Of a stretch of DNA of 64,000 nt, positions 33,310 to 36,173 are shown piece after piece. The notes below the pieces were generated by a model that saw nothing but the letters and a program-made list of their open reading frames with translations, was not told the DNA's origin and did not search any database. The DNA is taken from the NCBI RefSeq assembly GCF_902832885.1, contig NZ_CADFDK010000003.1, positions 682,001 to 746,000 of the forward strand, given 5' to 3'. The stretch comes from Burkholderia seminalis DSM 23518 (GTDB lineage Bacteria > Pseudomonadota > Gammaproteobacteria > Burkholderiales > Burkholderiaceae). A program made the translations under genes and the position numbers. Position 1 is the first letter of the stretch. The number at the start of each line of letters is the position of its first letter.

Positions 33310-33639
33310 TCAGCCCTGGTCGTCGCCGGGCCACCAGGCCTTGGCCTCGCGGTCGACGGCGAGCGATTCGAGATCCTTGCCTTCGAGCCATTTCGGCCGC
33401 GGGCCGCGCCCCGACCACGAGCGGCCGGTCGTCGGATCGTAGTACTTGGCAGGCGCCTTGCGTTTTCGCTGGACGATGTAGCCGAGCGCGCTCAACACTT
33501 CCTGCTGCGAAATGCCCAACAGCTCGACTTGCTCCTTGAATGCCGCGAGCGCGGCCTGCTTCTCCTTCTGCTTCGCATCCGACAGCTTGATGTTCAGGTC
33601 CCGAAGTTGTGCTTCGAGTTCCTGCAGGGCCTGGGTCAT
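33310..33639 (-). CDS. H-NS family nucleoid protein
   Basis: A 109-residue H-NS-like protein: N-terminal coiled coil (LQELEAQLRDLNIKLSDAKQKEKQ) for oligomerisation and the C-terminal DNA-binding motif YYDPTTGRSWSGRGPRPKWL. GAGG lies eight bases ahead of the ATG at 33639. H-NS proteins silence AT-rich foreign DNA. It lies directly downstream of the retron reverse transcriptase on the same strand, separated by 313 bp. Confidence 0.92.
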   Translation of the reverse strand: MTQALQELEAQLRDLNIKLSDAKQKEKQAALAAFKEQVELLGISQQEVLSALGYIVQRKRKAPAKYYDPTTGRSWSGRGPRPKWLEGKDLESLAVDREAKAWWPGDDQG

Positions 33640-33952
33640 GTATTCATCCTCTTTGGGCATGTTTTTGCAAAAAACTCCGATGGTCGAACCTATCACGAAG
33701 TTCCGCCGATCGGTGCTGTCAAATATGTGAATCGTCCGCCCGAGCCGGCATGCTTTGCGCGATGCGCACTAAACGACGTCGCGCGTCATTGACAGGCAGG
33801 ACCGGGCCGGCGTCGCGCACGAACAGGCACGGCGAACGGCTGCGGCAAGTCAGGCGCCGCCCCTGGCACGGGTGCGGCATGGCGCGAATGATAGCAGTGC
33901 GCGACATCGTATTGCAGAAGTCGCGTAACGGAATCGATGCGCAGCGAGCGGC
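33640..33952 (-). other. Leader region of the hns gene
   Basis: 313 bases without a credible gene. On the minus strand TTGACA (33722-33717) could be a -35 box, without a convincing -10. TTTTTGCAAAAA (33662-33673) is a 12-bp AT-rich palindrome just before the start, a possible autoregulation site. Confidence 0.35.
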
Positions 33953-35302
33953 TTACCGCCCGGCGTCGTGCGCATCCCAGGCGATCCGGTCGAACAGCGC
34001 GCGCAGCTTCGCGCCGCGTGCCGCATTCAGCGCGGCGGCATGCGCGACGCGCCCGGCGAGATGCGCGCGGAAATCCGGATGCGCGTCCCGATTCTGCGAG
34101 GCCGGGCCGTGCCGGATGCAGTTGGTCAGGATGGCCTTCAGCCGATCGAACTCGTCGCGCGCCAGATTCGGATGACGATTGACGACCACGCCGGCCAGTT
34201 GCTGTCGCGCCCCGCGCCGCATCACGCGCGTCTTGCGCAGTTGCAGCGCGAAGCCCTCCTCGAGCGCGATCGCGGCAACCCTGATTTGCAGCCGCTCGAT
34301 GTCGCGCGCAAGCGCGCCGCCGCCCGAGAACGCGAGATCGTCCGCATAGCGCGTGTAGGTCGCGTCGAGCGAACGCGCGAGCGCGGCGAGCCGCATGTCG
34401 AACCGGAACGCGCTCAGGTTCGCGAGCGCCGGCGACGTCGGCGCGCCCTGCGGGAGATGCCGTTCGCGATAGCGCTGGCGGCCGATCCAGTCGAACCGGT
34501 CGCGCAGGTCCGGCGCGAGCAGCCGCGCGGAGGGCACGCGATTCGTGCACAACCCGGTGAGCGTGCGCGCGACTTCGACCGGATACCCGAGCGTGGCGAA
34601 CAGCGCATGGACGCGTGCGGCGCGTACCGACACGAAGAAATCCGCGAGATCGAAGCGGACGACGACATCGCGGCCGGCATGCGGCGCCGCGAACGACACG
34701 ATCCCGTGCCCCTTGCGAAAACCGTGCACCGCGCCGTGCGGCGCGATGCGATCGAGCAACCCGTGCAGGATGCGGCGCTGTGCCTCGCGCAACCTTCCCT
34801 TCGGGATCTCGACCAGCCGGCACCCGCCGCTGCGCTTGTCGACCGCGACGTACGTGTAGTGATGCAGCGGCGTGGCGCCGCTGCGCGCGTCGACGCGCCA
34901 GTGATCGGACAGCCAGTCGAGCGCCGGCACGCTCACGCCGAGCCAGTCGGCGAGATCGCCGGGCGTCGCCCATGGCGGTACCTCGCAGCCGGCGAGCGGC
35001 GCCGGCAACGGCCGCTGGACTGGCGGCCGCCGCACGACGCGAATCACGGCCGGCCGAGGGTCGCCATACCACGCGCGCACGAATCCGGGCGCCTCGGCCA
35101 CGACGGCCGCAAGTGCATCGATGGCGGTGTCGGCCCAATGCGCGCCGAAGCGCGCGAGCGATGCATCCGCGACTTCATCTGCCCAGACCGGCGCGCCGCC
35201 GAGCACGGCCGCCACCCGCGCGACGACGCCGTCGCGTTCGGGCGAACCGGCGAGCATCGCCTCGGCAATCGTGCGGGTCGTGTCGCGCAGGGATGCATGC
35301 AT
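33953..35302 (-). CDS. Retron reverse transcriptase
   Basis: A 449-residue RT. Residues 1-110 are an N-terminal extension; 111-180 hold the retron-type lead-in (GDLADWLGVSVPALDWLSDH, LHHYTYVAVDKRSGGCRLVE). Then come AVHGFRKGHGIVSFAAPHAG (191-210), FDLADFF (217-223), LPQGAPTSP (283-291), the catalytic YADD (319-322) and QLAGVVVN (368-375). Group II intron maturase/endonuclease parts are absent. The long N-terminal extension recalls myxobacterial Mx162-type retron RTs. It would copy the adjacent structured RNA into msDNA. Start at 35302 follows the RNA; longer frames would translate the RNA region. No separate effector gene lies directly downstream. Confidence 0.9.
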   Translation of the reverse strand: MHASLRDTTRTIAEAMLAGSPERDGVVARVAAVLGGAPVWADEVADASLARFGAHWADTAIDALAAVVAEAPGFVRAWYGDPRPAVIRVVRRPPVQRPLPAPLAGCEVPPWATPGDLADWLGVSVPALDWLSDHWRVDARSGATPLHHYTYVAVDKRSGGCRLVEIPKGRLREAQRRILHGLLDRIAPHGAVHGFRKGHGIVSFAAPHAGRDVVVRFDLADFFVSVRAARVHALFATLGYPVEVARTLTGLCTNRVPSARLLAPDLRDRFDWIGRQRYRERHLPQGAPTSPALANLSAFRFDMRLAALARSLDATYTRYADDLAFSGGGALARDIERLQIRVAAIALEEGFALQLRKTRVMRRGARQQLAGVVVNRHPNLARDEFDRLKAILTNCIRHGPASQNRDAHPDFRAHLAGRVAHAAALNAARGAKLRALFDRIAWDAHDAGR

Positions 35303-35330
35303 GGCCGGGAATGGGCGAGAATGGGCGGGA

Positions 35331-35490
35331 CGATGAGTCAACGTGGCTGGTGCTGCGAGGGGAGGCGTTGCGCCGCGCGCAACCGGGCCCCTTGCGACGC
35401 ATCGGTGTGTCGATCCGATCCACGGGGTAGCCCCGTGGTCCTGGAACATCGGCTGCCTGTTCCGGGTGTGTGCTTGACCCACCGGCCCGC
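35331..35490 (-). ncRNA. Retron msr-msd non-coding RNA (predicted)
   Basis: Read on the minus strand. a1 (35484-35474, CGGTGGGTCAA) and a2 (35341-35331, TTGACTCATCG) form an 11-bp duplex with two G-U pairs. Directly inside a1 is AGC, the usual context of the branching guanosine (G at 35473). Then come msr-like hairpins: GGAACA/TGTTCC (35463-35443), CCACGGGG-CTA-CCCCGTGG (35438-35420, 8 bp with 3-base loop) and ATCGG/CCGAT (35419-35401). Next is a long imperfect msd-like stem (GCGTCGCAAGGGG with CCCCTCGCAGC) capped by GTTGCGC-GCG-GCGCAAC (35383-35367). a2 ends 28 bp before the RT start. Boundaries are estimates. Confidence 0.75.
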
Positions 35491-35497
35491 GTCGCGA

Positions 35498-35526
35498 CTG
35501 TAATGGGCGCACGCGCCGGGTGTCAA
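35498..35526 (-). promoter_or_regulatory. Promoter of the retron RNA
   Basis: On the minus strand: TTGACA (35526-35521), 17-base spacer, TTACAG (35503-35498). Transcription would start near 35491, about seven bases before the a1 repeat, as in known retrons. Confidence 0.7.
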
Positions 35527-35600: not shown

Positions 35601-36173
35601 TTACACGCCCCGCGCGAACAGCGCGCTGTATGCGATCGGCGCCACGCCGATACCGGCCATGCCGTTCAGCATCGTCGCCCAGGTCGCGTCGGCCACGCTC
35701 ACCGGAAACGACCGCACGTGATTGGCGAGCAGCCAGAAGGTCCGCGTCATGCCGTCGCTCATCGCGACTTCGTACCCGCTTCCCGCGGGCCAGTAGCCGA
35801 CCGGCGGCAGCGCCACCGGCGCCTCTCGGCCGCCCCTGAACCCGGCGGCAGCCATTGCGAACTTGCCGTCGAGCGGCATGGCCCGGCGCGGTACGCAGTC
35901 CTGCGAATCCTGTTTCGGGAACGCGGGGCTCGTTTCGAGCCAGCGGCGATAGAACGCGTCGGCGTCGAGATGGACGACGAAACGCTCCACCCCGGCCGGC
36001 TCGGCCGCCAGATAGCAGTCGGCCTGACCGGGCACGGGAACGCGCCAGATCGCGCGTTTCGCGCTCAGGTCGACCAGTTCGCACGCCGTCGGCCGGTGCG
36101 CAAGGGTTGAAGCGGGTCCGGATCCGCGCAAGTCGCGCGCGCGGTCGAGTCCGTTACGAAGACGTGTCAGCAT
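35601..36173 (-). CDS. Conserved hypothetical protein upstream of the retron
   Basis: A 190-residue protein without a signal peptide or membrane segment. Recognisable blocks: AIWRVPVPGQADCYLAAEPAGVE, RFVVHLDADAFYRRWLE, GYWPAGSGYEV, RTFWLLANHVRSFPVSV and a C-terminal MAGIGVAPIAYSALFA. From memory these resemble Burkholderia proteins labelled plasmid fertility inhibition factor family, but I am not sure. It ends about 75 bp before the retron promoter on the same strand. The ribosome-binding region is a GA-repeat tract. Confidence 0.7.
   Translation of the reverse strand: MLTRLRNGLDRARDLRGSGPASTLAHRPTACELVDLSAKRAIWRVPVPGQADCYLAAEPAGVERFVVHLDADAFYRRWLETSPAFPKQDSQDCVPRRAMPLDGKFAMAAAGFRGGREAPVALPPVGYWPAGSGYEVAMSDGMTRTFWLLANHVRSFPVSVADATWATMLNGMAGIGVAPIAYSALFARGV

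Follow-up and report, generated by a model that had tools for sequence, protein, structure and literature searches.

Can a retron consist of an RNA and a reverse transcriptase (RT) alone, and if so, what is its DNA for? Retrons that act in defence usually pair the RT and its RNA with a toxic effector, according to the accessible part of PMC12548924. The question is raised by a cassette on the minus strand of a 64,000-nucleotide stretch of Burkholderia seminalis DSM 23518 (the window), in which a promoter, an msr-msd RNA and an RT occupy positions 33953-35526. The initial annotation, made from the letters of the DNA, had called this arrangement a complete retron. That claim is supported by an RNA that covaries among homologous loci and tracks the RT in presence and in absence, and the cassette is very probably a two-part retron that makes msDNA. 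It looks like one without a local effector, because no shared neighbour gene was found in the loci examined.

The reverse transcriptase and the RNA upstream of it

The RT (33953-35302, minus strand; 449 amino acids from an ATG at 35302-35300) is of retron type by its PADLOC, Pfam and structural matches. Its YADD motif stands at residues 319-322, as first reported, and is invariant in all 40 aligned rows. Among the best 25 of 43 matching PADLOC models, RT_other (486 bits) and RT_outgroup (460 bits) lead, followed by RT_XIII (306 bits) and then by types III-A, XII and XI; the RT_other match covers residues 66-516 of the 519-codon frame that was scanned and positions 59-474 of the 481 in the profile. 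From their names we take RT_other and RT_outgroup to denote retron RTs without an assigned effector type, and these models carry no RNA part. Type XIII retrons come third with a lower score, and no accessory gene was found at the Burkholderia retron. Pfam finds RVT_1 and nothing else in the protein. The nearest solved structures are retron RTs, with that of Retron-Eco1 (Ec86) first; it aligns with the Burkholderia RT in two stretches (2.4e-24), but its chain of 320 residues is without the N-terminal extension seen here. Eco1 also has an effector gene. Because its RT is recognized by existing PADLOC retron models, the Burkholderia retron belongs to a known kind of element.

Two retron motifs are altered in the window RT, a reservation about the retron reading. 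Region X (NAXXH) reads FAAPH; N occupies its first position in 3 of 40 members and F, H or Y in 37, and the final H is present in all 40. VTG, at the start of region Y, reads LAG, with VTG itself in 12 of 40 and its G in every one. The N of region X is substituted in Ec48 and Mx65 too, and VTG in Vc81 and Ec48, according to PMC6868368.

A promoter with a TTGACA-N17-TTACAG layout had been proposed ahead of the RT on the same strand, and its coordinates hold: TTGACA at 35526-35521, a 17-nt spacer and TTACAG at 35503-35498 (35498-35526 overall, minus strand). TTGACA recurs in 25 of 25 Burkholderia loci examined, the distance from the -10 hexamer to CAAG being 21 nt in 24 of them and 20 nt in one. 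In the three Paraburkholderia-like loci TTGACA is followed after 17 nt by TATTGT or TATCTT. Of the 21 Oxalobacteraceae loci, many have TTGACC or TTGACG together with TACTGT or TACTCT at a spacing of 17-20 nt; the remaining 24 loci often match a promoter poorly.

Fold, covariation and a covariance model (R1) place the msr-msd RNA, 168 nt long, at 35323-35490 on the minus strand. The repeat that closes it had been described as 11 bp long. The repeat is present, but that length is too short: the helix extends over 16 bp interrupted by a single mismatch, and G-U pairs account for two of the 11 first counted. On its 5' side a1 (35474-35490) consists of GCGGG (35490-35486), one mismatched position and CGGTGGGTCAA (35484-35474); a2 (35325-35341), placed by fold, alignment and a coordinate check, consists of TTGACTCATCG (35341-35331), one mismatched position and CCCGC (35329-35325). 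In the alignment 13 of the 16 pairs of this helix are changed on both sides. The ATG of the RT comes 28 nt after a2 as originally drawn. Just inside a1, where an AGC branch context had been noted, lies CAAGC (35472-35476, minus strand) with the presumed branch guanosine at 35473. CAAGC is found in 43 of 51 aligned RNAs, a motif that also helped to place their 5' ends; seven others have CAAGA, CAAGT, CGAGC, CGAGT or GAAGA, and one row is misaligned. PMC6868368 lists TAGC, CAGA, CAGC, GAGC and ACGC as branch contexts; the myxobacterial retrons share AGC with the Burkholderia retron, the full contexts being CAGC in Mxa1 and Sau1 and GAGC in Mxa2 as against AAGC here.

Three small hairpins had been annotated between the repeats, and they fare unequally in the family. 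Hairpin II (35420-35438, minus strand), the one with an 8-bp stem and a 3-nt loop, is well conserved, with 98.5% of its cells paired; hairpin I (35440-35466) and hairpin III (35398-35417), both seen in the window fold on the same strand, have 62.1% and only 39.0% of their cells paired. Hairpin II reads CCACGGGG-CTA-CCCCGTGG around a core GGGG-NUA-CCCC, which is GGGGNTACCCC in 50 of 51 rows and GGGGTACCCCC in one; this core was the search string by which rows were chosen, so that its invariant G and C columns are partly so by construction. Independently of row choice, the motif occurs within 600 nt upstream in 75 of 80 loci. RT binding in Eco1 depends on an msr stem of 8 bp capped by a 3-base loop, and in Eco3 on a stem of 9 bp, likewise with a 3-base loop (PMC6868368). 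Hairpin II would be the counterpart of these stems and is presumed, by analogy, to be the element that the RT recognizes.

The long msd-like hairpin of the initial annotation could be located at 35355-35395 (minus strand). Its lower stem (35395-35388/35362-35355) and tip stem (35383-35377/35373-35367, loop 35376-35374) are both conserved with compensatory changes, at 96.4% and 95.5% of cells paired. Between them lies a 4x4 mismatched bubble, CCCG (35387-35384) opposite GCCT (35366-35363), which with the tip hairpin that it encloses spans 35363-35387. From the position of a2 and the priming rules of retrons, the msDNA is predicted to be a plus-strand product of about 55-65 nt at 35342-35400, its 3' end being approximate; the msd of Mxa1, by comparison, is 162 nt. 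The minimum free energy of the window RNA, -83.1 kcal/mol (z -3.35), is reached by a single one of 200 shuffles; the predicted msDNA folded as DNA is no more stable than its shuffles (z -0.08). The canonical order of all these parts is no chance arrangement, since homologues have the same parts in the same order.

Covariation of the RNA and its linkage to the RT

A genome-contig scan confirmed 129 relatives, and the best 80 of these were analysed. Their titles name Burkholderia, Paraburkholderia, genera of Oxalobacteraceae, other Proteobacteria, Acidobacteriota, Planctomycetota and Verrucomicrobiota; many of the loci in the last three phyla come from metagenome bins, in which contigs can be misplaced. 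The RNA alignment holds 51 sequences, the window and 50 of 74 distinct RNAs. In the 22 aligned loci of the genus, window included, the promoter, a1, msr hairpin and a2 align readily and the msd stem is variable. RNAalifold, run on all 51, gives 28 pairs, 19 of them with compensatory changes. When the window's own minimum-energy fold is imposed on the alignment, it scores 0.319, as against 0.128 +- 0.006 for shuffled and 0.079-0.107 for slid versions; 79.7% of cells are paired under it (67.3% when shuffled), 83.3% in the a1/a2 helix, and 345 cells show changes on both sides (134.8 when shuffled). A covariance check on homologous loci had been named beforehand, and its outcome is that the RT is conserved and the upstream RNA covaries.

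R1 finds a match just upstream of the RT in 76 of the 80 related loci. Twenty-six of these matches lie outside the set from which the model was built; most of the 26 are near copies of its members, and one of them (L100) is without the search motif. The four misses are three loci with 24, 199 and 274 bases available up to the RT match (L051, L075 and L102) and L056. The RT of L056 has no match to the N-terminal 108-113 residues, and the locus is without retron RNA. Seven further matches of R1, all weak, are antisense and fall on the msd, which is nearly palindromic.

RNA and RT occur together in wider sets as well, searched genome-wide with stricter filters that can lose weak matches. In a comparison of 36 other genomes of the genus, an RT match at 1e-216 or better was found in 22, every one of which carries the RNA, and the RNA is missing from the other 14. 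Among these 14 are G009, where the RT shows no match to query residues 1-108, and G008, where a decayed copy has left RT fragments: its matches are confined to RT residues 1-44 and 348-442, with no RNA found alongside. Across the 65 genus genomes exactly one RNA is present in 43 and two in none. Of the 369 class genomes, 10 have an RT that matches at 1e-30 or better, four at 534-678 bits (one of these RTs carries an in-frame TAG) and six at 261-300 bits, and the RNA is present in exactly the four with the close RT; four loci were examined in the six genomes with the weaker RT and held no RNA. Judged by sequence, a single RNA family, described by one covariance model, goes with a single RT clade across four phyla.

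Could the RT be of another sort, of group II intron, DRT or DGR type, with an inverted repeat lying upstream by chance? High G+C makes such repeats common, and the substitutions in region X and VTG would suit a non-retron enzyme. The scores point elsewhere: the group II model reaches 33 bits against a cut-off of 300 and the DRT2 model 35 against 390, while PADLOC retron models reach 486, and the RT is without maturase parts, as had been noted at the outset. A chance repeat would also have to covary and to accompany its RT from genome to genome. This alternative is hardly credible. Rfam yielded no match in the window at gathering scores; matches to mir-4900 and radC that appeared below threshold, under a permissive setting, were taken as chance.

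G-U pairs and the bubble of the msd hairpin

Where the template has a G-U pair, the cDNA copied from it has a C-A mismatch. An msd that matters as DNA would for this reason be expected to hold few G-U pairs, and few are found. Among standard pairs, G-U accounts for 75 of 665 in a1/a2 (11.3%), 49 of 402 in the msr hairpin (12.2%) and 10 of 642 in the msd stems (1.6%); Fisher tests of the msd against a1/a2 and against the msr hairpin give p of about 1e-13 and 7e-13. These tests, like the shuffles below, treat related sequences as independent, a weakness only softened by thinning the alignment to 28 rows, with Burkholderia and the Paraburkholderia-like loci represented once each, Oxalobacteraceae twice and all other rows kept. 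In this reduced set the counts are 38 of 364, 24 of 218 and 6 of 341, with p of about 1e-6 and 3e-6. The contrast is weaker by columns: 47 of the 49 G-U pairs of the msr hairpin fall in a single column, and columns with any G-U number 7 of 14 in the msd, 13 of 16 in a1/a2 and 2 of 8 in the msr hairpin.

The internal loop between the msd stems is 4x4 in 41 of 51 rows, six of which have a G-C pair at a fifth loop position that was counted as stem; the 10 rows with loops of other sizes were left out. Across these 41 bubbles, defined on the same alignment as was used for the test, Watson-Crick pairs number 16 of 164 as against 36.8 +- 4.5 in shuffles, none of 2000 being as low, and 26 of the 41 rows have no Watson-Crick pair in the bubble at all. 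(Before the G-C closing pair was trimmed the count had been 22 of 170 as against 43.6, which the trimmed count supersedes.) G-U pairs are not depleted in the bubble (20, with 15.0 expected). The reduced set, with 22 rows and 6 left out, gives 8 Watson-Crick pairs of 88 as against 19.1, a count that no more than 2 of 2000 shuffles reach. The letters of the loop vary, yet as DNA it seems to be maintained without pairing. Together, the depletion of G-U pairs in the stems and the mismatched bubble suggest selection on the hairpin as DNA.

The letters of the tip stem, TGCGC/GCGCA (35377-35383 and 35367-35373), are conserved beyond what pairing needs, with C in 49 of 51 rows at one column and G in 47 of 51 at another; such conservation hints at sequence-specific recognition.

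The mismatches that MutS is known to prefer are smaller than a 4x4 bubble. Msd stems generally hold mismatched or wobble pairs, and in E. coli overexpressed msDNAs with mismatched stems sequester MutS, according to PMC6868368. The predicted Burkholderia msDNA shares the mismatched stem with these MutS-titrating msDNAs; its family differs from them in a bubble that is conserved in position and size in 41 of 51 rows and depleted of Watson-Crick pairs.

The N-terminal extension, the neighbours and a possible partner

If the retron has an effector, could it be built into the RT? The protein begins with an N-terminal extension, roughly residues 1-100 (35003-35302, minus strand), which might be toxic or signalling and restrained by the msDNA, on the model of the TIR, protease and Toprim fusions. 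Its presence in all 40 aligned family members, at 82-127 residues, fits such a role, as does its faster evolution (median dN/dS of 0.445 as against 0.196 for the RT part, from 12 sequences in 66 pairs). No other gene was found travelling with the cassette, and in G009 neither the extension nor the RNA has a match. The extension itself, however, reads little like an enzyme. None of the 40 members matches a Pfam family above cut-off there, and within the first 100 residues only A12, A17, W39 and P97 reach 80% identity, none of them of a polar catalytic type. Its net charge ranges from -19 to +13, and its mean pairwise identity is 25%, compared with 57% for the RT part. A built-in effector is improbable on this evidence, and we infer that the extension is rather a fast-evolving contact surface. 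An extended RT N-terminus is also described for Mxa1 (Mx162), Mxa2 (Mx65), Sau1 (Sa163) and Nex2 (Ne144) in the accessible text of PMC6868368, a likeness by description only.

A separate effector would be sought among the neighbours. In the window these encode an H-NS-like protein, a PFIN-domain protein, an RmlD-like protein, DoxX, a DHDPS-family protein, MFS transporters, an HlyD-type protein and a TonB receptor. PADLOC, run on nine of them (seven plus the flanking H-NS-like and PFIN genes), gave no match and no defence gene. The retron is flanked by the PFIN (plasmid fertility inhibition) domain gene upstream (35601-36173) and by the H-NS-like gene after the RT (33310-33696), both on the minus strand, and either could be thought the third member of a tripartite retron, since they match in 14 and 23 of 80 loci. 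All those matches lie in Burkholderia, where synteny extends to MFS (22 loci) and RmlD (17) genes; outside Burkholderia no locus has an H-NS or PFIN gene within the available flanks at 1e-10, and the neighbours differ from locus to locus. Moreover, in seven of the 22 RNA-less genus genomes (L126-L132) the MFS, H-NS and RmlD genes stand in order with neither RT nor RNA, and one of the seven (L127) keeps a PFIN remnant. Both genes were rejected as effectors on these grounds, and a tripartite retron of this kind is very unlikely.

The segment gained or lost between the H-NS-like and RmlD-like genes in those seven genomes spans the retron and the PFIN gene. A short block at 33853-33903, upstream of the H-NS-like gene, also matches at the retron-less sites and marks one boundary of the variable segment, some 50 bp from the stop codon of the RT. 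In one Paraburkholderia locus (L058), MazG-like and integrase-like genes seem, by eye from translations, to come after the RT.

A search of neighbours all against all brought up ORFs shared by as many as nine loci from five groups. They lie at varying distances and on either side, and were taken for common protein families. No neighbour recurred by eye in 20 chosen loci, in 19 of which the RT was located, and no gene common to the cassettes was found in the loci examined; both statements rest on crude gene calls from G+C by position. Neither these calls nor Pfam, applied to the extension, revealed an effector gene or a recognized effector domain in the cassette.

The distribution bears on what the retron is for. 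In a tree of 72 RTs the grouping is largely by phylum and family. Taken together, the four phylum labels can be accounted for by 3 changes, the minimum; Planctomycetota alone do not form one clade (3 changes), and the placement of some long branches is uncertain. The RT is present at 88-91% identity on three Burkholderia records of 0.88-1.26 Mb from a plasmid collection, and the titles of two related loci name chromosome 3; the retron therefore sits on a third replicon in at least some species. Among phage records 12 have a match, none covering 80% of the RT. Vertical inheritance within the host group is also described for Mxa1 and Sau1 in the text consulted of PMC6868368, again a likeness by description only; the one genome-contig scan brought up no myxobacterial sequence among the best 80 of 129 relatives.

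A retron so largely inherited could serve in housekeeping or regulation and not in phage defence, its mismatched hairpin binding, for instance, a DNA-repair or other DNA-binding protein; the retron core would be the same as in the main explanation. The tree, the single copy of the RNA per genome, the ordinary neighbours and the titration of MutS in E. coli all lend themselves to this idea. It sits less well with the patchy spread (43 of 65 genus genomes, 4 of 369 in the class), with the retron-less sites and decayed copy, which mean repeated loss or gain, or with the division of Planctomycetota in the tree, and the bubble exceeds the mismatches preferred by MutS. A housekeeping role is conceivable, and on balance unlikely.

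The preferred reading remains an RT-msDNA complex that acts with a partner in trans. Its steps would be as follows. The promoter would give an RNA starting about where a1 starts; the a1/a2 helix would close this RNA and present the guanosine of CAAGC; and the RT would bind it, most likely through the conserved hairpin with the 8-bp stem and 3-nt loop. Priming from the 2'-OH of that guanosine, the RT would begin copying just upstream of a2 and would turn the msd hairpin into about 55-65 nt of DNA, stopping just past the stem. The product would be a DNA hairpin joined to RNA, with TGCGC/GCGCA at its tip and the conserved 4x4 bubble of mismatches in its stem. Branching, the ends of the cDNA and recognition of the hairpin are drawn by analogy with known retrons. 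With a host protein encoded elsewhere, the RT-msDNA complex might then sense, or serve as a decoy for, phage or stress enzymes that encounter the hairpin. The partner in trans is proposed because no gene was found travelling with the cassette, and it is a real possibility that falls short of probable; the sensing role is speculative.

What would this make of the family? The initial annotation had held such Burkholderia retrons to be poorly described, and among the matches listed in a literature search no title or abstract start describes this one, nor was there a description of its RNA, its bubble or the depletion of G-U pairs, the main retron classification lying outside the coverage of that search. 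A bolder reading of the whole, conceivable though less likely than not, is of an old, largely vertical retron lineage without a local effector, under selection on its DNA hairpin, in which mismatched DNA may be the ligand for a protein in trans and not part of a local toxin-antitoxin unit. With no partner gene found, the locus is well suited to asking what an msDNA does by itself. The depletion of G-U pairs is a purely computational sign that a segment of RNA is selected as DNA, and should known retrons show it too, it could serve to locate msd regions at other uncharacterised RT loci. The conserved bubble, for its part, is a testable candidate for what recognizes the msDNA.
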